A stretch of DNA of 64,000 nt from Thermoplasmata archaeon (GTDB lineage: Archaea > Thermoplasmatota > E2 > DHVEG-1). The notes beneath the pieces are model-generated. The model was given only the letters and a program-made list of their open reading frames with translations, was not told where the DNA came from and ran no database searches. The DNA is taken from the NCBI GenBank assembly GCA_020054495.1, contig JAHWGK010000008.1, positions 1 to 64,000 on the forward strand. Reading direction: 5' to 3'. Of the stretch, positions 20,285 through 56,238 are shown piece after piece (within the stretch, counting starts at the first letter, position 1; each line of letters starts with the position of its first letter). The position numbers were made by a program, and so were the translations under genes.

Positions 20285-20650
20285 TTATTTTTTTGCCTTT
20301 TTTGATTTCTTAGTTTCGGTTTTTGCCTTTTTCTTCTCGAGTTTTAATCGCTCTTTTTCAACCTCGGTTTTCAGTTTTTCCGTCTCCAGCTCAACTGAAG
20401 GATGAACCTTTACAACTTCTTCTGTTGTAGATAAGCCTGCGCGATATTTATATGTAAAGAACAAAGAAATTATTATGTATATGACTAAAATAACAACCAA
20501 AATAATAATAATTGGAGTCGGAAATTCTAATTGTTCAAAAAAAATGAGTCTAATTGCAAGAAATACTGAAAGAAGAACAGTACCCGCCCAAGCATGATGA
20601 CGAAATGCTTGATATTTCCTCTTACTCTCTGGTAAACTCTTATTATTCAT
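20285..20650 (-). CDS. Small membrane protein with Lys/Glu-rich C-terminus
   Basis: Two TM segments then KLEKKKAKTETKKSKKAKK tail. Confidence 0.6.
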   Translation of the reverse strand: MNNKSLPESKRKYQAFRHHAWAGTVLLSVFLAIRLIFFEQLEFPTPIIIILVVILVIYIIISLFFTYKYRAGLSTTEEVVKVHPSVELETEKLKTEVEKERLKLEKKKAKTETKKSKKAKK

Positions 20651-22143
20651 AGGAATTCAGTGCCTTCAGGCAATTCCTTCAAATATTTTCTAAAACCAGT
20701 TGGCCATTTATCAGGATCAAGACCTTTTTGAGCTAAAAATGCTGTTGTCCAACGTTCAAGACCAATACCGGAGCATCCGCTCCAAAGCTCACTTTTTTGA
20801 GCTTTTATATTAAATGCTTTTATGTACTTATCCCCAAGGATACTTAGGTTTTGGAATTCAAGCCACTCTGATTTTTTACGATCACCTCGATATGGCATAT
20901 AGGCTTCAAAATCAATGGTTCCGGTATCCTGATTACCAGCGTCGCCAATTTTTCCTGCTTGAGCCAGATACCATGGAGTAACCCATGCCATACGCCATTC
21001 AAGCTTAAAAATTTCGTTAAAAACATGCTTATACCTCTCAAGTAGTTTTTCACGAAGATTGAGAAGCTGCTCTTTGGTTCCAATGTAAACTGGTTCAATA
21101 CGATGAAACTCATCAACACGCTCTATACCATGTCTTCCACCTGATTCATATCTACCTGAAACAGCAGTTTTATCATATATTAACACAGGAAGCGATTTTT
21201 CAGAAATAGTTTTTCCCGTGAAAGACCAATAAATCACAGGGCATTGAGCATAACAAATACCTGCAGTAGGAATTGAAACATTCTTCTGCAATTCATCAAA
21301 AGGAACTTCTTTTGTGATCTTTGTAAGATCAACAAATCTTTCCCATTTTTCAGTATCTCTAGTTGCAGGTTCAGTGATATAGTAAAACTCACCAGGCATT
21401 CCCTCGAGATGACCAGTCTTTAGCCATATATCAAATGGAACCATACTAGACTCAATAATTTCTTGAAAACCGAGCGGCTTTAATACTTCATCAATTGCAA
21501 TTTTTTCCATTGTTTTTAAAATAGCAGCGGCTTGAGGACGATAAAACCATTTACCCTTTGTAGGGCCTTGTTTCAACCAACTAAGTTTTACCATTTCCTC
21601 AGTTGGATCCTTTAACCATACCTGTTTTTTCTCACCAGATTCCCAGATTAATTTCCAGAATTCTCCTTTGCCTTCATAATATTGATTTTCAACTTTTTCT
21701 TTTACAAGGGTGATCATTCTGTCTATGTAATTCCTTTGTAAAAATTCTTCATCAACATCCTTTAACATAATAGTTGCTTGTTTTTCTTCAAGTTTTACAT
21801 CTGCAAAAGGTATTGTAATTTTTTTCAATGGTTTTTTAACAAGTTCAAATCCTATTTTGTATTTCTCAATATTTATTTCTCTTACGCCAAGATGATGCTT
21901 TTTACCAAACTCTTTACTTATAGCATTTTTCATTTGAAGAAGTACATTATGCGGACGGAAACTTCCTTCAGAAACAATGTCAAAAGAAAGCGAGTTTTTT
22001 TGAATTTTCAAACTTTTAATTTTGGCACTTTTGTCTTGTCTAATTAGACTTTTACTATAGCTTGAAATAAAAGCCTCAATTTCCCTTTTAATTGAAGAAA
22101 CATCACCGCTGAACGTAAAATCTACCTTTAAATCAAATTTCAT
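20647..22143 (-). CDS. serS: Seryl-tRNA synthetase, methanogen-type (SerRS2)
   Basis: HHLGVREINIEKYKIGFEL N-terminal domain of SerS2; AGICYAQCPVIYWSF; WSGCSGIGLERWTTAFLAQKG motif 3. Confidence 0.88.
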   Translation of the reverse strand: MKFDLKVDFTFSGDVSSIKREIEAFISSYSKSLIRQDKSAKIKSLKIQKNSLSFDIVSEGSFRPHNVLLQMKNAISKEFGKKHHLGVREINIEKYKIGFELVKKPLKKITIPFADVKLEEKQATIMLKDVDEEFLQRNYIDRMITLVKEKVENQYYEGKGEFWKLIWESGEKKQVWLKDPTEEMVKLSWLKQGPTKGKWFYRPQAAAILKTMEKIAIDEVLKPLGFQEIIESSMVPFDIWLKTGHLEGMPGEFYYITEPATRDTEKWERFVDLTKITKEVPFDELQKNVSIPTAGICYAQCPVIYWSFTGKTISEKSLPVLIYDKTAVSGRYESGGRHGIERVDEFHRIEPVYIGTKEQLLNLREKLLERYKHVFNEIFKLEWRMAWVTPWYLAQAGKIGDAGNQDTGTIDFEAYMPYRGDRKKSEWLEFQNLSILGDKYIKAFNIKAQKSELWSGCSGIGLERWTTAFLAQKGLDPDKWPTGFRKYLKELPEGTEFL

Positions 22144-28132: not shown

Positions 28133-28236
28133 TTCAAGTTAATAAACCATCTAATTTAATTATTTATGGTTTATAGAAAACATTTAAGAGGAATAATTCT
28201 ATGACGGAAGCTTTACTATCAACGATTGGGGGTAAA

Positions 28237-30198
28237 ATGACATTAGATAAAGTGTTATCAACGGAAAAAGCAGAATTAGAAGAGGCTGTAAAAATTGCCA
28301 ATAAAGGAACACATTGTGGTATGTGTAAGGTTGATTTTTTAGAATCAGGTTTATGCCCAGCTGGTAAAAAACATGGATTTGCTGCATATTGGCCTGAAGG
28401 AAGAATGGAAATTGTAAAAGCTCTTTATTCTGATAAAATAAAACCTACAAAGGAATTATTGGAAATTGCCAATTCCTGTACAATTTGTGGTATTTGCGAC
28501 AAACAATGCAACTTTATTACACATCTTAGACCAGAAAAAGTTAGCAAGGCTTTGAAGGAATATGTCAATAAATTAGACGATAAAGATATTGTAACTATTC
28601 CTGAAAATCAAACATTAAAGGACATTCGATCAATAGTTGGAGAGAGATGGGCATCTAATGACCCAGCAGTTATTGTATCTTATACAAAGACAATCATTAC
28701 TGAGGATGCTGGAGTGAATTTTTACGTTGTTATGCCTGAAACAACAGAAGAAGTAGCTGAAGTTGTTAAATATGCAGATAAAAACAATATTCCATATCTT
28801 CCACGTGGAAATGGAACATTACTATCGATGTTTATAGAAACACTTCTTGCAAAAGCTGTTGGTCTAGAGAAAGGAATAATATTTGATTTTAGAAGACTGA
28901 GAAAACTTGAAATCGATATAGATAATAAAACAGCAACAATTGGTGTTGGAATAACAGCATTCGAGCTTCAAAAAGAAGCCTATAAACATGAAATGCGCGC
29001 TCTTGTTGCTGAAGCAGAGGCTCATTTGTGTGTAAATATTGCATCAGTTGGAATTATTTCTACTTGGGGTAATACTTACGGATGGGGGTCTGACAATTTT
29101 ATTGATGCAACTCTAGTTAATTCAAAAGGTAATATTGTCCGTCATAGCGATGAGGAAGTATCCAATCCTTATTCAACTAACAATAAATTCACAAATCTTA
29201 CATTAACTCCATCAAAAATCATTACTGAGGCAACTGTAAAACTCCATCCTATATTTGAAGATGAAGAAGCACTTTTAATTCCATTTGAAAAACTTGATGA
29301 TACACTTGACCTTGCGATGACACTTGCAAAAAGAAATATTGGACTTTCTCTTGCTGTAATATCAAGTAAATATCTATCTGAGTTCATCTGTCCAACAAAT
29401 GAAATCGCAGAGGATTTTGACTTTATTGCACAAAATTATCTAAAAATGAACTATTTATTAGATGTTATATGTGATAAGTACGATAAGAAGACAGTGCAAG
29501 ATCTAGCTGATGTTTTTATTGATGAAAATATGATGAAATCCTTGATTCTTGGATCACCTAGGCTTGCTTCACTTAAAGAAAGTGAATTTCTAAAAATTCT
29601 ATCTGAGGAAAAGGATCCCCTCAAAGCAATATTTACAGGACCGATGAGAAAACATTTGGAAAAAGCATTAGATCCATCGCCAGAACAAATATCAAAGGTT
29701 TTTGATGAAGATTTACAGGATTTTTTCAAAAAAGTATATTCAAAACCAGAAATGACAGATGTTGTTTGGCTTCATTCATTTAGGATTCTACCTAGCAGAC
29801 TAATGAGACAGAGAATGTTCATGTTGAGAGGTGGATATATTGTTGCAGATAAAGAGAAAATATTGAACCTAAACAAAATGCTCAAAGAAACAGGTGATAA
29901 ATACAAATTATCAAACGCCCTTGGATTTATTAGTTTCATTGAGAATGGTAAATTTGCATTTGTAGAATATGATTACTACTTTGATCATTTGGATCCTGAC
30001 TCTCATAATCGTTTGAACCAGGCAATTGTTGAAACATTACAATTGGAACTCAAAATTAAAGGTTTGTTACCAATTGAATATGTTTTTCATAAGGGTTTAC
30101 ATCGAAAGGAGCATTTATTTTATCCAATGCCCGAGGGTCTATCAGACGATGAATTAAAAATATTAGGAGAAATGGTTCAATCTGTCGTTGGAGGATAA
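28237..30198 (+). CDS. FeS-FAD oxidoreductase A: N-terminal [4Fe-4S] motifs + VAO/PCMH-type FAD-binding domain
   Basis: CGMCKVDFLESGLCPAG and CTICGICDKQC; FAD_binding_4-like region PYLPRGNGTLLSMFIETLL..GIIFDFRRLRKLEID; gggggtaaaATG start. Confidence 0.8.
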   Translation: MTLDKVLSTEKAELEEAVKIANKGTHCGMCKVDFLESGLCPAGKKHGFAAYWPEGRMEIVKALYSDKIKPTKELLEIANSCTICGICDKQCNFITHLRPEKVSKALKEYVNKLDDKDIVTIPENQTLKDIRSIVGERWASNDPAVIVSYTKTIITEDAGVNFYVVMPETTEEVAEVVKYADKNNIPYLPRGNGTLLSMFIETLLAKAVGLEKGIIFDFRRLRKLEIDIDNKTATIGVGITAFELQKEAYKHEMRALVAEAEAHLCVNIASVGIISTWGNTYGWGSDNFIDATLVNSKGNIVRHSDEEVSNPYSTNNKFTNLTLTPSKIITEATVKLHPIFEDEEALLIPFEKLDDTLDLAMTLAKRNIGLSLAVISSKYLSEFICPTNEIAEDFDFIAQNYLKMNYLLDVICDKYDKKTVQDLADVFIDENMMKSLILGSPRLASLKESEFLKILSEEKDPLKAIFTGPMRKHLEKALDPSPEQISKVFDEDLQDFFKKVYSKPEMTDVVWLHSFRILPSRLMRQRMFMLRGGYIVADKEKILNLNKMLKETGDKYKLSNALGFISFIENGKFAFVEYDYYFDHLDPDSHNRLNQAIVETLQLELKIKGLLPIEYVFHKGLHRKEHLFYPMPEGLSDDELKILGEMVQSVVGG

Positions 30199-30206
30199 TA
30201 AAGTTT

Positions 30207-30611
30207 ATGAAGTTCTTATCTGAAGAGTGGATTGAAAAAGCTAAAAAAATAGCTACTGAAAAATTAGACCCAGAAAAAGACCTAAAAAAGGCAACAACTT
30301 CGCTATTGAATATAATTGAAAACATACCTCCTGATGGCAAAACTGTTTATTTCTACCTATCAGTAAAAGAAGGTAATCTTCAAGAAATGCTAATAAATCA
30401 GTCTGGATCACTGCTTGATAAAAATGCAGAATTTGTAGTAACTGGTAATTACGACACTTTTGGTCAAATCTTTAAAGGAGAAATGAGTACACTCATTGCT
30501 TTAATAAAAAATAGAGTAAAAATTAAAGGAGATAAAGTAAAAGCCCTTAAATTTGTAAAGCCAATTGATAAAATTAATGATTGTTTAAGAGAGCTAGAAA
30601 CTGAATTTTAA
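30207..30611 (+). CDS. SCP2-like (sterol carrier-like) small protein
   Basis: MKFLSEEWIEKAKKIATEKLD...YLSVKEGNLQEMLINQ...VTGNYDTFGQIFKGEMSTLIALIKNRVKIKGDKVKALKFVKPI. Confidence 0.7.
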   Translation: MKFLSEEWIEKAKKIATEKLDPEKDLKKATTSLLNIIENIPPDGKTVYFYLSVKEGNLQEMLINQSGSLLDKNAEFVVTGNYDTFGQIFKGEMSTLIALIKNRVKIKGDKVKALKFVKPIDKINDCLRELETEF

Positions 30612-30752
30612 ACATATTTAATTTTAAATTATGAAAAAATTGATGCGATATTATCCTTTATTTATTTTTTTATATATTTTCCAATAAAAACCTTTAATAA
30701 TATGAGTTGTTATCATTTCTATTGTATATATTATTATTTTGGGGGAAAAAAC

Positions 30753-32723
30753 ATGACATCAGATAATGTTTTGGTTATGGAGAAAACATCATTTAAAGAC
30801 GCAGTTACTATTGCAAAAAAAGGTACCCATTGTGGCATGTGCAGATTTGATTTTCTTGGAAGTGGCGTGTGCCCAGCGGGTAGAAAACATGGATTTTTAG
30901 CATATTGGCCACAAGGGCGCATGGAAATCGTGAAACAATTGGATTCAGGCCGAGTTAAACCTACAGAGAAGCTAAAAGATATTGTTAATTCGTGTAATCT
31001 TTGTGGTATTTGTGATAAACAATGTAATTTTATTACACAATTACGACCCGAAAAGGTTGCAGGCGCATTAAAAGAATATGTTGATAGTCTAGATGAAAGT
31101 GAAATTCAGCATGTTCCTGAGGACGATATTCTTCACGGATTACGTGAAATTGTCGGTGATGATTGGGCAACAAATGATCCTATTATAATCTCCGCCTATA
31201 CAATGACAATTCTTCCCCCAGATAATAAACTAAATTATTATGTTGTAATGCCAGAAAATACAGAGCAAATATCAAAGATTGTAAAATTTGCTAATAAAAA
31301 CAATGTCCCATATTTACCGCGAAGTGGTGGAACAGCATTTTCAGCAGCTGCACCAACTGTTTTGGTAAAAGGTCTTAGTCTTGAACAAGGAATTATTATC
31401 GATCTTTATAGATTAAGAAATCTCGAGATTCATCCTGATAGTCAAACTGCAACAATAGGCGCAGGTATTACTATGTTTGAACTGCAAAAAGAAGCACTTA
31501 ATCATAAATTAAGAGCATTGGCGGCAGAAGCTGGAGCACATGTATGCTCTAATATTTTGACAACAGGAATTATCTCTACTTGGGGAAACAAATACGGAGC
31601 TTTTGCAGATAATTTTATTGATTTAACAACAGTAGATGATGAAGGCAATATTAAAAAACATAGTGATTGGGAGAGAAACAATCCTTATTCCACAGAACCT
31701 GGTTTTACAAATCTATCTCTCACTCCATCTGTAATTGTAACTGAAGCCGTGGTTAAACTACATCCAGTTTTTGATGATGAAGAAGCTGTTCTTGTGCCAT
31801 TTGATAACATTAGAGATGCCTTTAGACTTTTAATTAAGTTAGGAAAACGTGATGTAGGTTTATCACTTGCTGTTCTCTCACGTAAATATCTTGCTGAGTT
31901 TCTAAGTCCAACCATCCAAATCTCTAAAGACTTTGATTATGTTTGTAAAAACTATCTTAAACTAAACTATGTAGTAGCTGTCATCTGCGATCAAAATGAC
32001 AAAAAAATTGTAGAAGATATGGTAAATTGTACAATTGATCAATCTTTAATGAAGAGTCTGATATTAGGTGCTCCTAGATTTTCAAAACTTAGAGATAGTG
32101 AATTTTTAAAGATACTTTCAGAGGAAGAAGACCCTCTGAAAGCAATATTTGCTGGCCCAATGAGAAAACATTTGGAAAAAGCATTAGATCCATCACCTGA
32201 ACAAGTTTCGAAAGTTTTTGATGAAGATTTGCAGGATTTTTTCAAAAAAGTTTATTCCAAACCAGAAATGACCGATATTGTTTGGCTACATGCATTTCGA
32301 ATACTTCCTACAAGAATGATGAGACAGCAAATGTTTATGGGGCCTGGAGGAGCTATGTGGACTGGAGATGAAGACCATTATTTGAATTGGATCCAAATGT
32401 TTGCAGACATGGGAGATAAATTAGATGTTGAACATTCACTTGGTTTCATTAGCCCACTGGATCATGGTAAGTTTGCATATATGGAATATGACTATTATTA
32501 TGATCATAATGATCCTGAGGAACGCAATAAAATAAGTAAGATTACTGTTGACTCAATGGAACAATCATTAGTAATGGGGAAAGTACTCACAATTCTAAAT
32601 TATTTATACAAAGGTATATACCGTAAAGAACATGTTCTATATCCAATAGCTAAGGGAATTTCAGAGGAAGAGCAAGAACTGTTCAAAGAATTGCTAGGAA
32701 CAGTTCTAGGGGAGGAAATATAA
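30753..32723 (+). CDS. FeS-FAD oxidoreductase B, paralogue of the preceding oxidoreductase
   Basis: CGMCRFDFLGSGVCPAG, CNLCGICDKQC; PYLPRSGGTAFSAAAPTVL. Confidence 0.82.
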   Translation: MTSDNVLVMEKTSFKDAVTIAKKGTHCGMCRFDFLGSGVCPAGRKHGFLAYWPQGRMEIVKQLDSGRVKPTEKLKDIVNSCNLCGICDKQCNFITQLRPEKVAGALKEYVDSLDESEIQHVPEDDILHGLREIVGDDWATNDPIIISAYTMTILPPDNKLNYYVVMPENTEQISKIVKFANKNNVPYLPRSGGTAFSAAAPTVLVKGLSLEQGIIIDLYRLRNLEIHPDSQTATIGAGITMFELQKEALNHKLRALAAEAGAHVCSNILTTGIISTWGNKYGAFADNFIDLTTVDDEGNIKKHSDWERNNPYSTEPGFTNLSLTPSVIVTEAVVKLHPVFDDEEAVLVPFDNIRDAFRLLIKLGKRDVGLSLAVLSRKYLAEFLSPTIQISKDFDYVCKNYLKLNYVVAVICDQNDKKIVEDMVNCTIDQSLMKSLILGAPRFSKLRDSEFLKILSEEEDPLKAIFAGPMRKHLEKALDPSPEQVSKVFDEDLQDFFKKVYSKPEMTDIVWLHAFRILPTRMMRQQMFMGPGGAMWTGDEDHYLNWIQMFADMGDKLDVEHSLGFISPLDHGKFAYMEYDYYYDHNDPEERNKISKITVDSMEQSLVMGKVLTILNYLYKGIYRKEHVLYPIAKGISEEEQELFKELLGTVLGEEI

Positions 32724-33136
32724 TGGTAAAATTTCTTTCAGAAGAATGGATTGAGATTGGTAAAAAATATATGATTGAAAAGCTCGATCCAGTAAAAGAT
32801 TTGAAAAGTATAACCACATCTTTACTTGGCGTTGTAGAGCATATTCCACCAGATGACTCAACAATGAATTTCTATCTAGAACTTGAAGGTGGAAAATTAA
32901 AGGATTTTATCGTTAACACTGGGTACACTTTTGAAGAAAAAGAAGCTGCTTATGAAATTAAAGGTAACTACGGTACATATAAAAGCGTTCTTAAAGGAGA
33001 GATGAGTCTGGGTATTGCTGTTTTAAAAAACAGATTAAAAGTAAAGGGAAGTAAAATGGCAGCTCTTAAGCTAATTAAACCGCTTGATGGAGTAATTGTA
33101 TCGCTGCAAGAAATCACAGATGAATTTGAAGAATAA
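32723..33136 (+). CDS. SCP2-like small protein
   Basis: Paralogous to 30207-30611; start overlaps the upstream stop (taATG). Confidence 0.7.
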   Translation: MVKFLSEEWIEIGKKYMIEKLDPVKDLKSITTSLLGVVEHIPPDDSTMNFYLELEGGKLKDFIVNTGYTFEEKEAAYEIKGNYGTYKSVLKGEMSLGIAVLKNRLKVKGSKMAALKLIKPLDGVIVSLQEITDEFEE

Positions 33137-33177
33137 TTAAAAGTCAATTTGAAAGAATTAATTGAAGAGGGTTGAAT

Positions 33178-34539
33178 ATGGCAGTGTCAAATCAATATGC
33201 TGAAATAAAAAAGCTATTAGATAAGTTTATTACTCCTAGCGAGTCTTGGACTCCTGTAGAAAAAGCACTTTTTACTCCTGAGATGTTTTTTACAAATTAT
33301 AAGAAGAATCAGGAGTTGCTTTTACCTGCGATAAAACATAGCTTCAAACATCACTATGAAAACAATGTTCTTTTCAAAAGATTATGTGAAGTAGACAATG
33401 TCACAGTTGATAATATCAAAACATTAGATGACGTAAAAAAGATACCACTACTCCCTGATAGTTTTTTCAAAGATTATCCTGAAGGTAAAGGCTTTTTGAC
33501 ATGGTTGGATAACATATATACAGGCTCAACTCCAATGCCAAATTTCAGAACTGAAGCACCAGATCATGATGAGGTTATCGAGCAGTTTAACCAAAAAGGT
33601 GTTTCCATCATGTTTACAAGTGGTACATCTGGTAGATTCAGTTTTATTCCAAGAAATACAGGCTCATGGGATCGTCTTAGATACAATGCAATTAGATCTA
33701 TTGTCGAATTAATGGATTATGATCCAAATGACTCTGTAGTTTTACTAATACCGGATCCAAGGCAGACCAATCTTACAATTGCTGGTCTTTTTGGTATAGC
33801 TTATGATTTATACAAACCAGAAAACATTCATGTTGCACTTGAAGACACAAAAATTACCACCCAGTTTTTACGTATGCAAAGAGCAGATACAATCGGGCTT
33901 AAAGAAAAAATAAAAGCAAAAGCAATGGCGAAATTAAGCCCAATTGTCCAGAAGAAATCAGACCTCAGAATGATTGCTCTTTTTGAAAAATTCGAAAAAG
34001 AAGGAAAAAGAGCAAATATTGCAGGTCCTCCTTTTTGGCTTAATAGAGTTATGGAAAGAATGATAAAAGAAGATAGAAAAGTAAAATTACCTGACAGTCA
34101 AGTTCTAACAGGAGGCGGCTGGAAAGCCGAAGAAGATAAAAGGGCGCCAGAGGAAGCCTTCCGGGAGAAAGTTGAAGATATTCTCGGTATTCCTCAAAAT
34201 CGTTATCATGATGTTTATGCTATGTCCGAATGCAGCTCTGTTTTTTTAAGCTGTGAAGGACATTACAAACATGTTCCACCAACAATTATACCGCTTGTTT
34301 TAGACGAAGAGCTTAAACCAATTGGCTATAATAAATTTGGTCGTTTTGCATTTATTGACCCAATACCTGACAGCTACCCAGGTTTTATTATAACAGGTGA
34401 CAAAGTAAAACTGTTTGAAAAATGCCCAGTGTGTAATCATGAGGGGCCAGTACTTGACATTGAAGTTGCTCGCCTGCCAGGAGTTGAAGGGCGAGGTTGT
34501 GCAGCTGTAATGGCTGAGCTAATGGAATCGGAGGAATAA
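33178..34539 (+). CDS. LuxE-like acyl-protein synthetase / adenylate-forming enzyme
   Basis: MFTSGTSGRFSFIPR (P-loop-like motif of the ANL superfamily), GLFGIAYDLY, LTGGGWKAEED, YAMSECSSVFLSCE. Confidence 0.8.
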   Translation: MAVSNQYAEIKKLLDKFITPSESWTPVEKALFTPEMFFTNYKKNQELLLPAIKHSFKHHYENNVLFKRLCEVDNVTVDNIKTLDDVKKIPLLPDSFFKDYPEGKGFLTWLDNIYTGSTPMPNFRTEAPDHDEVIEQFNQKGVSIMFTSGTSGRFSFIPRNTGSWDRLRYNAIRSIVELMDYDPNDSVVLLIPDPRQTNLTIAGLFGIAYDLYKPENIHVALEDTKITTQFLRMQRADTIGLKEKIKAKAMAKLSPIVQKKSDLRMIALFEKFEKEGKRANIAGPPFWLNRVMERMIKEDRKVKLPDSQVLTGGGWKAEEDKRAPEEAFREKVEDILGIPQNRYHDVYAMSECSSVFLSCEGHYKHVPPTIIPLVLDEELKPIGYNKFGRFAFIDPIPDSYPGFIITGDKVKLFEKCPVCNHEGPVLDIEVARLPGVEGRGCAAVMAELMESEE

Positions 34540-34543
34540 GACA

Positions 34544-34945
34544 ATGGTTCGTTTCCCATCCGATGAATGGATTAAAATATTTAAAGAAGAGCTGAATAAA
34601 AATAAATCATATGAAGAAGCCGCTAAAACATGGGAGGGAGACTTTCTCTTTGTGGTTACCCCTGATGAAGAATTAAAAGAAGAAGTTACTTTTTATGTTG
34701 ATCTCTGGCATGGAAAATGTAAAGATGCATATCTTGTAAATGATAATAAAACAGCAGCATTCATTTTTAAAGGACCATATTCTAACTGGAAGAAAGTAAT
34801 AAACAAAGAGCTTGACCCAATTCGTGGATTAATCAGGGGAATGTTCACTATTGAAGGAGATTCAAAGGTAATTCTTGACCAATCTAAAGCAGCCCAAGAG
34901 CTTGTAAATACTGCAAGTACCATTCCAGTCGAATTTGAGGTATAA
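34544..34945 (+). CDS. SCP2-like small protein, divergent third copy
   Basis: MVRFPSDEWIKIFKEELNKNK...FVVTPDEELKEEVTFYVDLWHGKCKDAYLVND...FIFKGPYSNWKKVINKELDPIRGLIRGMFTIEGD. Confidence 0.6.
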   Translation: MVRFPSDEWIKIFKEELNKNKSYEEAAKTWEGDFLFVVTPDEELKEEVTFYVDLWHGKCKDAYLVNDNKTAAFIFKGPYSNWKKVINKELDPIRGLIRGMFTIEGDSKVILDQSKAAQELVNTASTIPVEFEV

Positions 34946-34950
34946 CTTAT

Positions 34951-36504
34951 ATGGGGAAAACAATAAACACTTATTTCTGGAACCCTAAACTGGGTATCGA
35001 TGATAATTTAGAGTTTAGTTATGAAGATGTTGGAAATGGAATTGAACTGAAAAAACCAATTTTTACTAAAGAATCTCTCAATATAATAATTAGCAGCTTA
35101 AAACAATCAAGACAAAATTACCTCCTCAATATTAACATTCCAGTTGTCTTTGATGTTATTGAAAAAGTAACAGAACTTTGGGCGAATCCAAATTATAAAG
35201 GTAGAAAAATTGCAAGAGAAGTTCTACCAACAGTCACTGGTTTTTCAGAACAAATGATTGACTCCTGGGGTTTTGATCATTTTATGAAAATCCTAAAAAA
35301 AGAAAACCTTCCTTTATTTGGAAAGTTAAAACCTGAAAATTATCAGAAATTTTCTGATCTTCAAGATGGACTTGTTAAAGCCTATGGCAAAGTAGATGTA
35401 AGTCATTCAAATTTTGAACCTGAAATAATAGGTCATATTTGTGCTGGAAACATCCTTGGCATTGCTGCTTTTGAAATGATTATTGATAAACTAGTTGATG
35501 CAGCAACATGGATAAAGGTTCCAACAGAAGAACCTGTTTTTGGCGCTCTCTATGCTAAATCAATTGAAGAAATAGATCCAAAACTAGCATACTCAATTGC
35601 AATTCTACCATTTGGAAGTAAGGATAAATTTGTTCAAGATTTTCTCTTTTCAAAATCTGATATCGTTCGTGCAACAGGTGGTGAACAAGCCCGAATAAGT
35701 TTAACAAATCTTGCAGAAAAACATAATATACCTATTTCTGGCCACTGGCATAAATTTAGTTTTATTACAATTGCAAAAGATTACATGAATGAGCAAGCCA
35801 GTCAAATTGCAGAACTTGTTTCACTTGATGTAACTGCCTGGGATCAACAGGGTTGTTTTTCGCCACAAGAAATATTTGTTGAAAAAGGTGGAGAAGTTGA
35901 TCCTTTAAAATTTGCTGAACTGCTTTCTGAAGAAATGGAAACAACTTCAATAGCACTCCCAAAAGGTACAAATTCTGGGAAGATGCAGGTTTTAGATGGC
36001 TATCACCAATACTTCAAGAAAGAGATGATGGGGGAACCTGTGAAAATATTTCCTTCAGCGACACATCAATGGCTTGTAATTTATGATGGAACAACTACAC
36101 GTTTTGAACCGTCTCCATTATTTCGAGTAATTAGAGTAAAACCTGTGGATGATATAATGGAGATTCCTAAACTTGTAAAGCCACTAGGAAGCTTCTTGCA
36201 AACTGTTGGTGTTGCAATTCCTAATAATCGTTTGATTCCTTTTGCAGATGCAATTGGCGAAGCAGGCGCAACAAACATACGTGCAATTAGCAGTATGACA
36301 CTTCAAAAACCTTGGGAACCATGGGATGGAAGATTTCCATTGCATGAACTTTTTGAACATGATAATATCCGTTGGGTGAGTATTAGCACAAGAGATATCG
36401 ACAAAGAAATAGAAATAGCACTTGAACGAAAACGGTCAATTGTTAATCAACGTATTGATACTATCCAGCAAAAAGAACAGTCTACTTTGCATTTACCTGA
36501 ATAA
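34951..36504 (+). CDS. LuxC-like acyl-CoA reductase
   Basis: GHICAGNILGIAAFEMIIDKLVDAATWIKVP, SLDVTAWDQQGCFSPQEIFVE (catalytic Cys region), ALDH-like fold. Confidence 0.82.
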   Translation: MGKTINTYFWNPKLGIDDNLEFSYEDVGNGIELKKPIFTKESLNIIISSLKQSRQNYLLNINIPVVFDVIEKVTELWANPNYKGRKIAREVLPTVTGFSEQMIDSWGFDHFMKILKKENLPLFGKLKPENYQKFSDLQDGLVKAYGKVDVSHSNFEPEIIGHICAGNILGIAAFEMIIDKLVDAATWIKVPTEEPVFGALYAKSIEEIDPKLAYSIAILPFGSKDKFVQDFLFSKSDIVRATGGEQARISLTNLAEKHNIPISGHWHKFSFITIAKDYMNEQASQIAELVSLDVTAWDQQGCFSPQEIFVEKGGEVDPLKFAELLSEEMETTSIALPKGTNSGKMQVLDGYHQYFKKEMMGEPVKIFPSATHQWLVIYDGTTTRFEPSPLFRVIRVKPVDDIMEIPKLVKPLGSFLQTVGVAIPNNRLIPFADAIGEAGATNIRAISSMTLQKPWEPWDGRFPLHELFEHDNIRWVSISTRDIDKEIEIALERKRSIVNQRIDTIQQKEQSTLHLPE

Positions 36505-39768: not shown

Positions 39769-42333
39769 GTGGAGGTAGTGTATATGAGAAAGACAATGTT
39801 GGGAATTTTAGTGAGTATGTTAATGATTGGAAGTGTCTTAGCTAGTGCTACAGTAATTGAAAACAAAGAGTATCTAAAAAATGAAAAAACAAGTTTTTTT
39901 GAAATTGAAGATGGTGAAATAAGTGTTACAACGCCTATAGGAAGCTACGAAATTAAACAAACTGATCAAGGCGACTATGTTTCTGTTGAAGATTTTGGTC
40001 GGCTTTTAATTCCAGGAAAACCTGAACTTCCAACAAAGATTTATGCAATTGCTATTCCACCCGCCGCTGAATTTGATGATGTAACTTATGAAATTGGTGA
40101 AGGAATCGAACTTCCTGGAGAATATAACGTAATACCAACTCCTCTCCCAAAGGTAATTGGGGTTGAAGACCCAGAAGTTCGTGAAAAAGAAGAGCAAATT
40201 TATAATGAAAATTATGAAAATACATATAACAGCGATGATCAGTATCCTACTTCAGTAGTAGAATTTGAGCGAACTGCAGGTTTTAGAAAATATAATCTAG
40301 TTGATGTGAAAGTAACTCCTTTTTCGTATAAACCATTATCTGGCAAACTTACTTTTTATCCAGATATAACCATCCATGTAAGTTATACATTTCCCGAGGG
40401 TACAGACCCCACTGAAATCATGTTTGATGAAGTAGAAAGCTTTGAACAAAGAGCAAGTGAGTTCATACTAAATCATGAAACAGCGAAAGGTTGGTATACG
40501 CCAGGAAAGAGCGGAAGAGAAACCTATGATTATATAATTATTACCCTTGATTCTCTGACCTCATCTGTAGACCCATTAGTTGATTGGGAAGAAGTAAAAG
40601 GACGGAGTGTAAAAGTTGTCACAACTTCTTGGATCAATTCAAATTATGATGGATATGATTTAGCAGAAAAGATAAGGAATTTTTTAATAGACAAATATCC
40701 TTCAAGTGAATGGGGAATTGAGTATGTATGTTTAATTGGTGATTATGATGATGTATCAATTCGTCGTACGGCACAGAATACAGGTTACGGAAGGCCTGAA
40801 ACTGATTTCTATCATGCCGAGCTTACATTACCTGACAGTCAATCATGGGATGCGGATGGAGATCATCAATATGGTGAAAACTCTGATCCCGTTGATTTCT
40901 ATGCAGAAGTTTATGTCGGTAGAATTCCATGGAGCACCCCGTCAATCGTAGAAAGTATTTGCGAAAAGACAGCTGCCTATGAAGGGGAGATTGATCCTTC
41001 ATTTAAGAAAAATATACTTCTTTTAGGTGCGTATTTCTGGCCTGATACAGATAACGCGGTATTAATGGAATACAAAACAGATGACAGTATACATCCATGG
41101 ATGTCTGATTGGACAATGACAAAAATGTATGAACAAGGTCAATCTTCATATCCAATGGATTACAACCTGGACTACAATAACGTTAAATCTGTCTGGTCGT
41201 CAGGAACTTTTGCTTTTGTAAACTGGGCTGGACATGGTTCACCAACTGCATGTTATGAATATTATCCCTCACAAGCTTTTGTTGATACAAACACCTGTAA
41301 TTATCTGAATGATGATTACCCGGCAATCGTTTTTGCAGATGCGTGTAGTAACTCTGATACCGATGAAGACAACATTGGCCAGATGATGCTGAAACAAGGC
41401 GCAGTAGGCTTTCTTGGAGCAACTAAAGTAGCATATGGAATGCCTGCATGGAGCAATCCATTGAGTGGTTCCAGCCAATCTATGGATTATTTCTTTACAA
41501 CAGGTTGTACAGAGGGGATTTTAACTCAAGGTGAATCCCATCAATTAGCTTTACAAGAAATGTATGAAAATGATTTATGGTACTATCAGAAATATGAGCA
41601 TTTTCAATGGGGCGCACTATGGGGTAATCCAGATCTAACAATGGGTGAAGTTGTAACAACTGAACCGCCAAGCATTCCAATTATAGATGGTCCAACTGCG
41701 GGTGTACCTCATGACCAGTTGACATTTACAGTCGAATCAATTGATCCTGATGGAGATATGATTTATTATAAGTGGGATTTGGGTAATGGCGAAGTGACTT
41801 TCTGGTATGGACCTTATAATTCTGGAGAAACTATAGAGTTTACTTATGAATATTTGGAGGTTGGAATATATGAGGTTAAGGCATATGCAAAAGATATAAA
41901 CCAAAGAACTAGTGAAGACTGGTCAGATCCGATTACGGTAACAATTGGCGATAATCGTGCTCCAGAAAAACCAACAATCACTGGACCAACCTCTGGAAAA
42001 GTTGGAGTACCCCTAGATTTCACATTTGTATCAACTGATCCCGATGGGCACGATATATATTATATGGTTCTATGGGGAGACGGCAATATGGAAGACTATA
42101 CAGGACCATATGCATCAGGTGAAGAAGCAACATTTAGCCATGTATGGAGCTCAGTAGGTGAATTTAATATTATTGTAAAAGCAAAAGATCAATACGAAGC
42201 GAAAAGCCCACAGAACAATCTCAAATTAAGGATACAACTGAGCAGAGCCATAACTAACCCAGTATTATTTCGGATTCTTGAAAATCTAATGAGTCATTTT
42301 CCACTGTTAAATCATCTACTTTTAAACATATAG
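39769..42333 (+). CDS. Secreted C25 (gingipain-like) cysteine peptidase, PKD-like domains, shared C-terminal module; likely ATG at 39784
   Basis: VNWAGHGSP (His), VFADACSNSD (Cys); signal peptide; C-terminal module. Confidence 0.85.
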   Translation: MEVVYMRKTMLGILVSMLMIGSVLASATVIENKEYLKNEKTSFFEIEDGEISVTTPIGSYEIKQTDQGDYVSVEDFGRLLIPGKPELPTKIYAIAIPPAAEFDDVTYEIGEGIELPGEYNVIPTPLPKVIGVEDPEVREKEEQIYNENYENTYNSDDQYPTSVVEFERTAGFRKYNLVDVKVTPFSYKPLSGKLTFYPDITIHVSYTFPEGTDPTEIMFDEVESFEQRASEFILNHETAKGWYTPGKSGRETYDYIIITLDSLTSSVDPLVDWEEVKGRSVKVVTTSWINSNYDGYDLAEKIRNFLIDKYPSSEWGIEYVCLIGDYDDVSIRRTAQNTGYGRPETDFYHAELTLPDSQSWDADGDHQYGENSDPVDFYAEVYVGRIPWSTPSIVESICEKTAAYEGEIDPSFKKNILLLGAYFWPDTDNAVLMEYKTDDSIHPWMSDWTMTKMYEQGQSSYPMDYNLDYNNVKSVWSSGTFAFVNWAGHGSPTACYEYYPSQAFVDTNTCNYLNDDYPAIVFADACSNSDTDEDNIGQMMLKQGAVGFLGATKVAYGMPAWSNPLSGSSQSMDYFFTTGCTEGILTQGESHQLALQEMYENDLWYYQKYEHFQWGALWGNPDLTMGEVVTTEPPSIPIIDGPTAGVPHDQLTFTVESIDPDGDMIYYKWDLGNGEVTFWYGPYNSGETIEFTYEYLEVGIYEVKAYAKDINQRTSEDWSDPITVTIGDNRAPEKPTITGPTSGKVGVPLDFTFVSTDPDGHDIYYMVLWGDGNMEDYTGPYASGEEATFSHVWSSVGEFNIIVKAKDQYEAKSPQNNLKLRIQLSRAITNPVLFRILENLMSHFPLLNHLLLNI
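41961..42330 (+). repeat. Copy 2 of the shared 3' module
   Basis: ccagaaaaaccaacaatcactggaccaacctctgg... near-identical to other copies. Confidence 0.9.
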
Positions 42334-44864: not shown

Positions 44865-47606
44865 ATGAGAGACTATACTTTTAAGGAGATAAAAAGAAGT
44901 AGAAGCGGTATTGGTGTAATTTTTTGTGTTTTTTTACTCATTGCATCCATCGCTACAGCAATTGATATACCAAAAGAGTTAGATGAAAAAGATGGCAGCA
45001 AAACGGATAGCTTGAGTTATACGTTTCTTTTTGAAGAGCCTAGTTTTCAAATAACAGAAGCAAATGATCAAGAATTTTCATTAATAGAAATGGGCGGATG
45101 TATTGCAATAGGAAAAAATGCTGGTCATCCCATGATGCCAGTTAAACCTGTTACTTTACTTCTTCCACCGAAAAAAACAGTTTCAAATGTAGAAATTAAT
45201 GGAATTCCTGCAAATGTCGATCTAGCAGGTATTGATTTGGTGGAAAAACCAGTTTTTCCATATCAAAATCCAGTACCATTTGGACATTCTCCTGGCGATT
45301 TTGAATATGATAATGGCCTTTATTCTACTGATGCTTTTTATCCAAGTGTTTTACAAGACGAGTATCATATCGGCTATTCCCGAGGGTATGCAATATTTGA
45401 TATATCGCTTAATCCAATAAAATTTAATCCTGTAGATGGAAACTTATTATATTACTCTGAGATGACAATTAATATCGAACTTGAAGAAACAGAAGCAAAT
45501 CCGCTTTTTAGAAATAATCCAGAAGACAAAGCATGGGTTGAAAAACTTGTTTATAATCCAGATGCAACAAAATATTATACACCGGATTTAGCAGCTTTTA
45601 GTTATGATGGTGGCCTTTGTGATCCAGGTGATGATTATGATTATGTCATTATAACTACAACCTATAATAGTCTTGATTACTGGAGTACAGGTGGCTCTAC
45701 ACCATATAATTGGGAGAGTCTTATGGATAAACATGAATCTGAAGATGGCATGAGTTGTACACTTGTTACAGTTCAGGATATTGAGGCCTGTTCTGATTAT
45801 GGAAATTCAAATCCATTGTTTGACGATCAAGAGGCACATATTCGAGAATTTGCCAAAGATGCATATCAAGACTGGGGAACTTCATATATACTTATTGGCG
45901 GTGATGATGAGTGGATAAACGCGCGTCATATGGATACAAATTACGAAGGCAACATTGATTCAGATATTTACTGGAGCAATCTTGATAGTACGTTTAATGA
46001 GGATGGAGATTATGATTGGGGTGAAGAAGGCGACAATGGTTTTGATCTTTATGCCGAGATCTTTATTGGTCGTGTTACTTGCGATACGCCACAAGATGTA
46101 TCAAATTGGTTGACTAAGAGCTTTTACTATGCTGATAGTATGGATGACGTCTATTTGGATAATGCAGCATTTTATGGTGGAAATACTGGTTGGAATTGTC
46201 AGGGTGATGATTTCATGGACTACAGTGCCATTAAGGGAACTAATGATTGGCTTGGCCCGAATCCTGGTGCTGATGGACCGTTTCCTACATGGGCCGGTTT
46301 CCAATTTGGCTTTGAAACTTGGAATGCTGAAAACCCTGATGATCAATATGATATTTCAGTCCAGTGGACTGCAGAACCGCCAAATCCTGGTTGGCAAGGC
46401 GGATCAGAATCTGCAGCTATAAACGGACTGAAAAATGACATTAACAACGATCAAGTGACAATTTTGAGCGGCATGGCCCATGCAAATTCTCAGATGTCGC
46501 TAGATGTTTCTTCAAGCAACTGGGAATCTGATTACCATAACACGAAACCTTTCTTCATCCATGACTATGGATGCCATTGTGGTGACATGGATGCATCAGA
46601 TGATGGCGTCCTTCACTCAATGTTATTCCACAGTGATACAGAACTTGCTTTTGCAGCTGTATACAATACATGTTACGGATGGGGTAATTTTGATACAACA
46701 AATTCAAGCAGTGCGTTCCAGACAAAAGAGTTCTGGTCATACTTCCTTGATATGAAAAACAAATCTGGAGATTTTAATAGTTGGCAACTTGGAAAAGCAC
46801 ATGCCTTTTCCAAAGATAGAATGGCTCCAACAATTAACTGGGATTATTCAACTGGCACATGGCGGGCTATTATCCAAGGCTGTCTATTATTTGGAGATCC
46901 TGCACAACAACTCAAAACACCACACCAAAGCGAACCTCCAGCAAACCCAGATGCACCAGATGGGCCAGATGACTGGATTCCTAACGTAGAATGCACGTTT
47001 TCTGCAGTCACAACTGATCCTGAAGGGGAACAAATTTTTTATATGTTTGACTGGGGCGACGGAACCTTTAGTAATTGGCTAGGACCCTATTCTTCCGGGC
47101 AAACTATAGATGAATCTCATATCTGGACAGAATTGGGAAACTATGAAATAAGTGTAAAAGCAAGAGACATATGGGGCGTATCAAGCGATTGGTCAGAACC
47201 AGCAGTTCTTTCAATTATTCCGAATAAACCACCTGAAAAACCAACAATCACTGGACCTACCTCTGGAAAAGTTGGAGTACCCCTAGACTTCAATGTTGTA
47301 ACAACAGATCCCGAAGGACACGATATATATTACATGGTTCTGTGGGGAGATGGAAGCTATGTGGATTATACAGGCCCATATGCATCAGGTGAAGAGGCAA
47401 CATTTAGCCATACATGGACTTCAGCTGGAGAATTTAATATTGTAGTAAAAGCACAAGATCATTTCGGAGCAAAAAGCCCACAGAACAACCTCGAATTAAG
47501 TATAACCAAGAATAAGGCTGTTACTAATTCGGTATTACTTCAATTTCTTGAAAAACTAATGGATCTTTTCCCACTGTTAGAACAAATACTGCAAAATATA
47601 GTCTGA
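44865..47606 (+). CDS. Secreted C25-like peptidase with altered catalytic motifs, shared C-terminal module
   Basis: Gingipain-like layout; His region ILSGMAHANSQ and Cys region IHDYGCHCGDM; C-terminal module. Confidence 0.75.
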   Translation: MRDYTFKEIKRSRSGIGVIFCVFLLIASIATAIDIPKELDEKDGSKTDSLSYTFLFEEPSFQITEANDQEFSLIEMGGCIAIGKNAGHPMMPVKPVTLLLPPKKTVSNVEINGIPANVDLAGIDLVEKPVFPYQNPVPFGHSPGDFEYDNGLYSTDAFYPSVLQDEYHIGYSRGYAIFDISLNPIKFNPVDGNLLYYSEMTINIELEETEANPLFRNNPEDKAWVEKLVYNPDATKYYTPDLAAFSYDGGLCDPGDDYDYVIITTTYNSLDYWSTGGSTPYNWESLMDKHESEDGMSCTLVTVQDIEACSDYGNSNPLFDDQEAHIREFAKDAYQDWGTSYILIGGDDEWINARHMDTNYEGNIDSDIYWSNLDSTFNEDGDYDWGEEGDNGFDLYAEIFIGRVTCDTPQDVSNWLTKSFYYADSMDDVYLDNAAFYGGNTGWNCQGDDFMDYSAIKGTNDWLGPNPGADGPFPTWAGFQFGFETWNAENPDDQYDISVQWTAEPPNPGWQGGSESAAINGLKNDINNDQVTILSGMAHANSQMSLDVSSSNWESDYHNTKPFFIHDYGCHCGDMDASDDGVLHSMLFHSDTELAFAAVYNTCYGWGNFDTTNSSSAFQTKEFWSYFLDMKNKSGDFNSWQLGKAHAFSKDRMAPTINWDYSTGTWRAIIQGCLLFGDPAQQLKTPHQSEPPANPDAPDGPDDWIPNVECTFSAVTTDPEGEQIFYMFDWGDGTFSNWLGPYSSGQTIDESHIWTELGNYEISVKARDIWGVSSDWSEPAVLSIIPNKPPEKPTITGPTSGKVGVPLDFNVVTTDPEGHDIYYMVLWGDGSYVDYTGPYASGEEATFSHTWTSAGEFNIVVKAQDHFGAKSPQNNLELSITKNKAVTNSVLLQFLEKLMDLFPLLEQILQNIV
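47229..47603 (+). repeat. Copy 4 of the shared 3' module
   Basis: DNA-level near-identity with other copies. Confidence 0.9.
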
Positions 47607-54157: not shown

Positions 54158-54277
54158 AGAAAAATCAGAAAAAAAATGATGTATAATTAACCTTTTCACC
54201 TCTCTTTTTTTCTTTATTTGTTTAGTCACCAAACTATTATAATGGGTATTCTATTTCCTTCGGCCGGAGAATCCAAA

Positions 54278-55579
54278 ATGGATAATCTTTTTAATCTCAA
54301 AATAGAAAAATTACCTCGAACAAAAATTAAGGAACTGCAGCTTAAACAATTGAAAAAAACAGTAAAACTTGTTTATGATAATGTTCCTTTTTATAAGAAA
54401 AAGTTCCAGGAACTAAAGATAAAGCCAGATGATATTAAAACATTAGAAGATGTGCAAAAGTTGCCAGTTACAACAAAAGATGACCTAAGAGATAATGCAC
54501 CATTCAATATGATGGCCACTTCACTTGATAATTGTATCGAACTACATGCTTCATCTGGTACAACGGGCATCCCAGTTACTGTATGCTACACTCCAAACGA
54601 TATTGAAGTATGGTCTGAAGTTATGGCACGTTGTCTATCCATGTCTGGTCTAACTAAAAAAGATGTCTTTCAAAATCCAATACCATATGGAACGTTTACT
54701 GGTGCCTTTGGATTTCATTATGGCGCTCACAAGATTGGTGCCCTAGTTATTCCCTCAGGTATGGGACAATCTGAAAGACAGATAAAGCTTATGGACTATT
54801 ATGGCACTACCTTTATCTCAGGCGTTGCATCATATGCAATGCGTCTATCTCAAGTTGCTCTTGACATGAAGATAGATCCGAAAAAACTGAAGGTTAGAAA
54901 TGGACTTTTTGGTGCTGAAACATTTTCCCCTGGCTTGAAAAAACGCATTATGGACATCTGGGAGATGGACGTACATGATATTTATGGTTTAACAGAGATG
55001 TGCGGGCCGGGTGTCTCAACAGATTGTGATCAACACAATGGTCTTCATTTATGGGAGGATCATTTTCTGGTAGAATGTCTAGATCCAGTTACACTAGAAC
55101 CTGTGGGACCTGAAGAAGAAGGAGAAATCGTCATAACTACACTGACAAAAGAAGGTATGCCCTTACTGAGATATAGAACAAGGGATATAGCAAAACTTTA
55201 TGATGAAAAAATTTGTGAATGTGGAAGAACTCATATCAAACATACTCCAGTAAAAGGACGTAGTGATGATATGGTGATTATACATGGGACAAATATCTAT
55301 CCTGGTCAAATTGAATCTGTATTAATGAAAAACAAAGATGTTGGTAATAACTGGAGAATGGTACTCAAGACAGTTGATGATGTTGACATGCTCACTGTTG
55401 AGGTGGAAAGTAAAAATCAATTGAGTCAAGTTGAGTCTATGGACCTTGAAGAGATTTTAAAAACTGATATAAAATCAGTAATTGTGTTTACACCAAGAGT
55501 AACTGTTTTACCTCCAAAGAGTATTCCTCAAGAGGGTTTAAAAGCAAAACGTGTCATCGATGAAAGGAAAAAGGTATAA
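54278..55579 (+). CDS. Phenylacetate-CoA ligase-like (PaaK family)
   Basis: LHASSGTTGIPVTVCYT, YGLTEMCGPGVSTDC, RTRDIAKLY, KGRSDDMVIIHGTNIYPGQIE. Confidence 0.92.
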   Translation: MDNLFNLKIEKLPRTKIKELQLKQLKKTVKLVYDNVPFYKKKFQELKIKPDDIKTLEDVQKLPVTTKDDLRDNAPFNMMATSLDNCIELHASSGTTGIPVTVCYTPNDIEVWSEVMARCLSMSGLTKKDVFQNPIPYGTFTGAFGFHYGAHKIGALVIPSGMGQSERQIKLMDYYGTTFISGVASYAMRLSQVALDMKIDPKKLKVRNGLFGAETFSPGLKKRIMDIWEMDVHDIYGLTEMCGPGVSTDCDQHNGLHLWEDHFLVECLDPVTLEPVGPEEEGEIVITTLTKEGMPLLRYRTRDIAKLYDEKICECGRTHIKHTPVKGRSDDMVIIHGTNIYPGQIESVLMKNKDVGNNWRMVLKTVDDVDMLTVEVESKNQLSQVESMDLEEILKTDIKSVIVFTPRVTVLPPKSIPQEGLKAKRVIDERKKV

Positions 55580-55581
55580 TC

Positions 55582-56238
55582 ATGAAAGCAAGCATTAAAA
55601 AATTGATAGAAAAAAAGGGACCTCTTGCTGAAAATGAAGTAAAGGATTTATTGAAAGAATATGGAATAGGAACAACAAAATACAAATTGGTAAATAAGAT
55701 TGAAGATTTAGAAAATCTAGAATTGAAGTTTCCAGTGGCCCTCAAAGTTTGTTCAAGTAAAATTCTACATAAAACAGATGTTGGAGGTGTAAAACTAGAT
55801 ATCAAAGACATGGATGAACTCAAAAAAACATTCAAGGACTTCAGGAAAAAATTCCCTAAAGAAAATCTTTTAGTTGACCAGATGGCAGAAAAAGGCGTCG
55901 AAATTATCATTGGTCTTATTCAAGACCCAACATTTGGTCTATCTATTATGTGTGGAATCGGTGGTATTTTTACCGAACTTTATAAGGACGTAACATTCCG
56001 TGTTGTACCAATTGTAAAATTTGATGCAGAACAAATGGTTGAAGAGATAAAAGGAAAAAAACTATTAGAAGGATTTAGAAACATCCCTGCAAATAAACAA
56101 TTAGTTATTGATTTACTTATAAGGGTATCAAAAATTGGAGAAGAATTAAAGGATCATATTGATGAAATGGATTTGAATCCAGTTTTTGTTTATAAGGATA
56201 ACATTTGTGTTGTAGATGCTAAGCTAATATTAAAATAA
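55582..56238 (+). CDS. ADP-forming acyl/acetyl-CoA synthetase beta (ATP-grasp) subunit
   Basis: FPVALKVCSSKILHKTDVGGVKLDI, GLIQDPTFGLSIMCGIGGIFTELYKDVTFRVVPI. Confidence 0.9.
   Translation: MKASIKKLIEKKGPLAENEVKDLLKEYGIGTTKYKLVNKIEDLENLELKFPVALKVCSSKILHKTDVGGVKLDIKDMDELKKTFKDFRKKFPKENLLVDQMAEKGVEIIIGLIQDPTFGLSIMCGIGGIFTELYKDVTFRVVPIVKFDAEQMVEEIKGKKLLEGFRNIPANKQLVIDLLIRVSKIGEELKDHIDEMDLNPVFVYKDNICVVDAKLILK

Follow-up and report, generated by a model that had tools for sequence, protein, structure and literature searches.

The locus treated here raises the question of what an archaeon does with a LuxE-like acyl-protein synthetase and a LuxC-like acyl-thioester reductase whose genes are interspersed with those of small SCP2-fold proteins and large flavoenzymes. 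It lies in a stretch of 64,000 nucleotides (the window) from a Thermoplasmata archaeon (assembly GCA_020054495.1, contig JAHWGK010000008.1, positions 1 to 64,000), where seven plus-strand genes between 28237 and 36504 follow each other in the order OxA-SCP2-OxB-SCP2-LuxE-SCP2-LuxC, Ox designating predicted iron-sulphur (Fe-S) and flavin adenine dinucleotide (FAD) oxidoreductases. We lean slightly towards reading them as a lineage-specific operon, in which a reductase leading from an acid via a protein thioester to an aldehyde would be combined with redox chemistry of the Ox enzymes on the same hydrophobic compound, held by the SCP2 proteins. Each part of the cluster belongs to a known superfamily; a search of the open-licence literature found no report of the gene combination, of the lineage-specific Ox family or of the pairing of enzymes with SCP2 proteins. 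A conserved operon that predicts the formation of an aldehyde from a hydrophobic acid offers a testable reaction in an abundant archaeon, with an Ox family of this lineage only and dedicated SCP2 proteins. The lineage, MBG-D, is uncultured and its metabolism is known through sequence data.

Layout of the cluster

A first-pass annotation, made from the sequence of the window alone, had named seven open reading frames in this order and on this strand, and all are present:

OxA, 28237-30198, plus strand: FeS-FAD oxidoreductase, with an N-terminal Fe-S region carrying seven conserved Cys, then FAD_binding_4 (VAO/PCMH type)
SCP2-1, 30207-30611, plus strand: SCP2-fold protein downstream of OxA
OxB, 30753-32723, plus strand: second FeS-FAD oxidoreductase, 59% identical to OxA
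SCP2-2, 32723-33136, plus strand: SCP2-fold protein, overlapping OxB by 1 bp
LuxE, 33178-34539, plus strand: LuxE-like acyl-protein synthetase of a long archaeal form, with the acyl-acceptor Cys kept
SCP2-3, 34544-34945, plus strand: SCP2-fold protein resembling Thermus TT1886, encoded between the LuxE and LuxC genes
LuxC, 34951-36504, plus strand: LuxC-like acyl-thioester reductase, with the catalytic Cys302 in DQQGCFSPQ

The successive intergenic distances are 8, 141, -1, 35, 4 and 5 bp, the 35 bp before LuxE being counted to an alternative TTG start at 33172 and not to ATG 33178. The earlier description of the cluster as nearly gapless fits most junctions, but not the 141 bp before OxB, which are AT-rich and could hold a second promoter. 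As had been claimed, each of the first three large genes is trailed within about 10 bp by an SCP2-family gene (8, -1 and 4 bp). Gene starts were placed from start codons and upstream sequence: OxA has a further in-frame ATG at 28201, OxB starts at ATG 30753 behind a purine-rich stretch while the mechanical open reading frame begins at 30702, and LuxE starts at ATG 33178 with its mechanical frame beginning at TTG 33172. A scan of the cluster region for RNA families gave no match. The cluster is flanked by a gene for a 229-amino-acid protein on one side and one for a fructose-1,6-bisphosphate aldolase/phosphatase on the other; both are on the minus strand, facing the opposite way, and lie outside the cluster.

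LuxE and LuxC

The identity given to LuxE and LuxC at first pass agrees with Pfam, with a single structure in the PDB and with the aligned catalytic cysteines. LuxE matches Pfam LuxE (PF04443, E 6e-25), and the sole PDB sequence match of its profile is chain E (LuxE) of 7xc6, in an alignment that extends through the C-terminal GC motif. Its C443 (numbered from TTG 33172), invariant across 16 diverse LuxE homologues, aligns with the Cys near the C-terminus of 7xc6 chain E, and we take this C-terminal Cys to be the acyl carrier. LuxC matches Pfam LuxC (PF05893, E 9e-58); 7xc6 chain A is its sole PDB sequence match, with DQQGCFSPQ aligned to DQQACFSTQ. Both proteins score far under the NCBIfam equivalog cut-offs for the LuxE and LuxC of luminescence (LuxE 90.1 vs 550 bits, LuxC 59.1 vs 750 bits). 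Both are genuine members of the Lux acid-reductase families. From the chemistry of these families we infer a route from acid to thioester to aldehyde: LuxE would adenylate a hydrophobic carboxylic acid and bind it in thioester linkage to its C-terminal Cys; the acyl group would then pass to the Cys of LuxC, where reduction by NAD(P)H would yield the aldehyde.

The label of a "Lux-like cluster" that the locus had received finds no support in the affinities of the two genes. A profile of the archaeal LuxC gives 199-236 bits for LuxC-like proteins on Lactiplantibacillus, Priestia, Pantoea and Azospirillum plasmids, against 40-56 bits for Streptomyces and Novosphingobium and 56 bits for the LuxC in the PDB, so that the LuxC of the window is much nearer to uncharacterised bacterial cassettes of a ligase, LuxC and an SDR than to the LuxC of luminescence. 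On the four plasmids (L099-L102) a small carboxylate ligase is followed by the LuxC-like reductase and an SDR, with an ABC transporter in two, and a route from acid to aldehyde to alcohol is to be expected of such cassettes.

A different arrangement is found on plasmid pLA3 of Novosphingobium pentaromativorans US6-1 (L098:7407-14394), where LuxC-LuxE is followed by GlcD, GlcE, GlcF and a heme-binding protein. It is an independent bacterial parallel for LuxC-LuxE beside FAD/Fe-S oxidases.

LuxE, for its part, most likely arose as a branch of a larger archaeal LuxE family whose usual partners are transglutaminase-fold proteins and not LuxC, judging from its placement in a maximum-likelihood tree. 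There the LuxE sequences of the cluster form one clade (100/100) inside the archaeal LuxE set and stand beside the main transglutaminase-paired clade with a joint support of 86/92; the root was placed at the midpoint, and the outgroup includes some long branches. Among 390 Thermoplasmatota genomes, intact LuxE of the cluster type (>540 bits) is confined to the family of the window, and the second LuxE family, mostly at ~320-445 bits, is widespread. In twelve regions that were fetched, 14 genes of one family of ~325-amino-acid proteins stand beside 16 LuxE copies, mostly directly downstream; a transglutaminase core was found in all three neighbours scanned, and no LuxC was found near the pairs in these regions. 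The acyl Cys is kept in the LuxE of the pairs, which may transfer an activated acid by way of a cysteine-peptidase fold. The pairs lie at L134-L145, including a copy in the genome of the window itself (L136:7761-10134, LuxE at G000:C55:23799-25106), and three of the loci (L134, L135, L137) hold two or three LuxE copies. A literature search found no paper on the LuxE-transglutaminase pair.

Conservation and distribution

Ox-SCP2-LuxE-SCP2-LuxC recurs in this order on a single contig in each of 12 genomes (G000, G005, G010, G013, G030, G035, G038 and G040-G044) of at least four genera in one Thermoplasmatota family (MBG-D/Thermoprofundales). Among these, LuxC runs off the contig in G013, and G005 and G044 have a split gene; in two further genomes (G007, G027) the cluster is broken by runs of N. 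All seven genes are under purifying selection, with ratios of non-synonymous to synonymous substitution (dN/dS) of 0.03-0.10 in pairwise comparison with genome G010. Given these ratios and the order kept in 12 genomes, the cluster is not due to chance. LuxC was found in 14 and Ox in 18 of the 45 family members searched, Ox being present in all 14 LuxC genomes (hypergeometric P 1.8e-8, uncorrected for shared ancestry), so the co-occurrence in related genomes that had been proposed as a check was indeed observed. Two Ox-SCP2 pairs inside the cluster occur only in the window genome and G010, among the genomes examined, and the doubling in the window looks like a tandem duplication because OxA and OxB are 59% identical.

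These data bear on whether Ox-SCP2 and LuxE-SCP2-LuxC might be two unrelated units that are merely adjacent. Ox and Ox-SCP2 units do occur alone elsewhere, 141 bp precede OxB, and SCP2-1 and SCP2-2 belong to one subfamily and SCP2-3 to another (18-27% identity between them). However, the gene order is kept in several genera though the flanking genes change from genus to genus, every LuxC-bearing family member has Ox, OxB overlaps SCP2-2 and LuxE starts only ~35 bp further on, and we find mere adjacency very hard to believe.

Outside this group the search for Ox was nearly empty. The genomes of 84,980 species were scanned for Ox by means of its alignment, relying on two short peptide patterns by which distant relatives could be missed; this yielded 29 loci, all but one in archaeal genomes of this group, and plasmids yielded only partial GlcD-type FAD domains as Ox relatives. 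The Ox flavoproteins thus appear to form a family restricted to this archaeal family. Trios of LuxE, LuxC and SCP2 beyond Thermoplasmatota were searched for on plasmids. The exceptional locus (L066, JAUVDZ010000058.1) is a 7.3 kb contig in a Candidatus Peregrinibacteria bin that bears the archaeal cluster, with an Ox 88% identical to archaeal Ox; a contig of archaeal origin was probably binned wrongly in this public genome, and a spread of the cluster to bacteria was rejected on this account.

The flavoenzymes

Both Ox proteins match FAD_binding_4 (OxA E 6.6e-19, OxB E 8e-22), and the VAO/PCMH flavin domain earlier ascribed to them is recovered by PDB sequence and fold matches. An AlphaFold2 model of OxB (mean predicted local distance difference test score, pLDDT, 79.8) retrieves VAO/PCMH enzymes from the PDB over most of its length, the closest folds being those of D-lactate dehydrogenases and of VAO-family enzymes that oxidise alcohols and phenols. 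The C-terminal part of Ox has no Pfam match. A Fer4_8 match is weak in both proteins and in OxA below the curated cut-off; seven N-terminal Cys (C27, C30, C40, C81, C84, C87, C91) are conserved in Ox, C27 being absent only from one sequence with a truncated start. Because there are seven, two Fe-S clusters are likely, of which one would have a fourth ligand that is unusual or not a Cys.

Two known activities were considered for Ox and rejected. A GlcD-type GHxGDGN motif occurs in 0 of 24 Ox sequences and neither OxA nor OxB matches FAD-oxidase_C, which excludes a simple GlcD-type glycolate oxidase; the AGPS-like HHG/HHH pattern occurs in 1 of 24, which speaks against an AGPS-type ether-lipid synthase. 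The "ether-lipid route" of the first-pass annotation, like its "long-chain" substrate, is a guess, and the putative substrate might be fatty, isoprenoid or aromatic.

The closest folds would also suit a pathway run in the catabolic direction, in which OxA and OxB would start from an alcohol (hydrophobic or aromatic) or a hydroxy acid and oxidise it, LuxC would oxidise the resulting aldehyde to a protein thioester, LuxE would hand on the acyl group or free the acid, and the electrons would feed fermentative metabolism. The Novosphingobium plasmid, on which LuxC-LuxE stands beside GlcDEF and a pair of FAD-oxidoreductase and cytochrome c, looks catabolic, and the host is described as an amino-acid degrader (PMC6461988). 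On the other hand, LuxE chemistry consumes ATP, and the cluster contains no transporter or downstream degradation gene. The characterised LuxC-LuxE complex, moreover, works towards the aldehyde. On balance we regard a catabolic direction as unlikely.

The SCP2 proteins

All three small proteins match Pfam SCP2 (PF02036; SCP2-1 E 2e-6, SCP2-2 E 5e-4, SCP2-3 E 4e-9), SCP2-1 and SCP2-3 passing the cut-off and SCP2-2 falling slightly below it (20.9 vs 21.3 bits). The model of SCP2-3 (mean pLDDT 92.9) has the Thermus SCP2 structures 2cx7 and 1wfr as its best matches, at template modelling (TM) scores of 0.85-0.88 that bear out the predicted fold, and matches eukaryotic and UbiJ SCP2 domains more weakly. 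The N-terminal motif noted earlier as [FS]-[DE]-EWI is present, with S as its first residue, and should read S-[DE]-E-W-I. The host genome encodes no SCP2 protein of this family other than the three of the cluster.

Another archaeal association of an SCP2-3-type protein with aldehyde chemistry is seen in Haloferax mediterranei pHME132 (L092:4083-9342), where a relative of SCP2-3 has an aldehyde dehydrogenase/alcohol dehydrogenase pair on one side and a long-chain acyl-CoA ligase on the other.

With three SCP2-fold proteins in the cluster, the only ones of their family in the genome, one might think of biosynthetic tailoring of a membrane lipid or prenylated quinone: LuxE and LuxC would reduce a lipid acid, isoprenoid or otherwise, and Ox with SCP2 would perform a redox reaction on the lipid that needs no O2, with a logic like that of UbiT/UbiU-UbiV or AGPS. 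There is a precedent for SCP2 in ubiquinone synthesis (PMC6747719), and the FAD domain of Ox shows weak PDB sequence similarity to AGPS (E 2e-8). Yet the scarcity of the HHG/HHH pattern in Ox counts against this explanation, no lipid-biosynthesis gene lies in or adjoins the cluster, and an operon so patchy that it occurs in 14 of 45 family genomes does not serve a core membrane function. We consider such tailoring quite improbable.

Host lineage and neighbouring genes

The host genome (2.7 Mb, 248 contigs, ~90% complete) is archaeal, as had been assumed. Among genomes with the same genes, the closest to it are Thermoplasmatales archaeon SG8-52-3, SM1-50, bin14, bin45 and bin50 and Thermoplasmata archaeon M9B1D and 3300003432D, and SG8-52-3, SM1-50, M9B1D and 3300003432D are listed as Thermoprofundales (MBG-D) genomes (PMC6461988). 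From these named relatives we infer a placement of the host in Thermoprofundales (MBG-D), Thermoplasmatota, which are described as being among the archaea most often found in sediments and as degrading proteins, peptides and amino acids (PMC6461988). In view of this description, a fatty-acid substrate should not be assumed. A link to long-chain beta-oxidation was rejected, PF00441 (acyl-CoA dehydrogenase) being present in 1-4 copies in nearly all members searched, whether or not they have the cluster.

Elsewhere in the window, peptidase-like proteins (C25, gingipain-type, 39769-42333 and 44865-47606; C13, 15248-17185) carry PKD domains, are nearly identical at their C-terminal ends and fit the described protein-degrading life style. 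A PaaK-type AMP-dependent ligase followed directly by an ATP-grasp acyl-CoA synthetase-type subunit (54218-56238) fits amino-acid fermentation. A tRNA_bind_4-domain protein (20647-22143, minus strand) is apparently a rare archaeal-type seryl-tRNA synthetase, and a related gene adjoins the LuxE-transglutaminase pairs in L137 and L138.

Proposed pathway

In the operon that we favour, the LuxE-LuxC route to the aldehyde would be served by SCP2-3, encoded between the two genes, which would bind a hydrophobic ligand, either the substrate or the product. OxA and OxB would each be paired with an SCP2 subunit and act as anaerobic flavin dehydrogenases on the same compound, upstream or downstream of the reductase, and pass electrons via their Fe-S region to a cellular carrier. 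That the SCP2 proteins present the substrate to the enzymes, and that Ox and LuxE/LuxC share it, are suppositions. The pathway could run either way: the Ox folds and the Novosphingobium context suit oxidation of an alcohol or hydroxy acid, the ATP cost of LuxE suits reduction.

Several observations weigh against this interpretation. The fold matches of Ox are moderate (TM 0.42-0.49 by query, root-mean-square deviation 8.7-11.4 A). Because several genomes carry extra Ox or Ox-SCP2 copies remote from LuxE/LuxC, Ox may have a separate job; many of the remote Ox genes have an adjacent SCP2 and others none, and no common partner emerges from the genes around those Ox-SCP2 copies that stand alone (peptidases, histidine kinase, PQQ proteins). 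The 141-bp gap lets OxA-SCP2-1 be a separate unit, and SCP2-1 is missing in one genome, G041 (L025). The closest bacterial LuxC genes adjoin small ligases and SDRs, not SCP2 or Ox, and the published description of MBG-D has them feed on peptides and amino acids, not fatty acids (PMC6461988).

A bolder version of the operon would join the acid reductase and the Fe-S/FAD enzymes in one complex, each with an SCP2 subunit, passing a single hydrophobic intermediate between active sites. We offer it tentatively and would sooner expect it to fail than to hold; if true, it would mean that sediment archaea possess an aldehyde chemistry of lipid type that is not known from the Archaea.

Taken as a whole, the first-pass annotation was right about the families, folds and co-occurrence: the neighbourhood is conserved, the SCP2 fold is present, and neither LuxC nor LuxE falls in an unrelated characterised family. 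The long-chain substrate, the ether-lipid route and the Lux-like label are unsupported or guesses.

Comparison with known systems

The VAO/PCMH flavoproteins (eugenol and vanillyl-alcohol oxidase, LDHD, GlcD, AGPS) have the FAD_binding_4 domain and the overall fold in common with Ox. Unlike these relatives, Ox has an Fe-S region with seven Cys at the N-terminus of the same polypeptide and is without the GlcD and AGPS motifs.

SCP2-3 resembles the Thermus thermophilus TT1886 SCP2 (2cx7, 1wfr) over its full length, including the WEG(D/S)...DLWHG(K/A)C region, and TT1886 itself is listed only as a possible sterol carrier protein. SCP2 proteins that serve redox enzymes on hydrophobic intermediates are represented by UbiJ, and by UbiT with the Fe-S proteins UbiU-UbiV (PMC6747719). 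The common point is an SCP2 dedicated to redox enzymes, with Fe-S proteins in the O2-independent branch (PMC6747719), but the Ubi systems employ other enzyme families (UbiU-UbiV are not Ox-type flavoproteins) and no LuxC/LuxE, so that the likeness is one of analogy only.

The bacterial cassettes of small ligase, LuxC-like "acyl-CoA reductase" and SDR contain the nearest bacterial LuxC relatives found, and their adjacent ligase is weakly LuxE-like. They differ from the archaeal cluster in having SDR or ABC-transporter neighbours instead of SCP2 proteins or an FeS-FAD enzyme.

The LuxC-LuxE fatty-acid reductase of luminous bacteria (7xc6) likewise has a LuxE with an acyl-carrying C-terminal Cys and a LuxC with the Cys of DQQxCFS. 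The archaeal LuxE is ~80 amino acids longer, and the archaeal cluster lacks LuxA/B and adds three SCP2 proteins and two FeS-FAD enzymes. The luciferase family PF00296, which matched in control genomes, has no match in the ~90% complete host genome, in agreement with the earlier statement that no luciferase subunit is present; PF02273 (LuxD) has none there or among the open reading frames of the cluster, with no match in any control genome either. The cluster also indicates that acyl-protein chemistry of the Lux type extends well past luminescence in Archaea.

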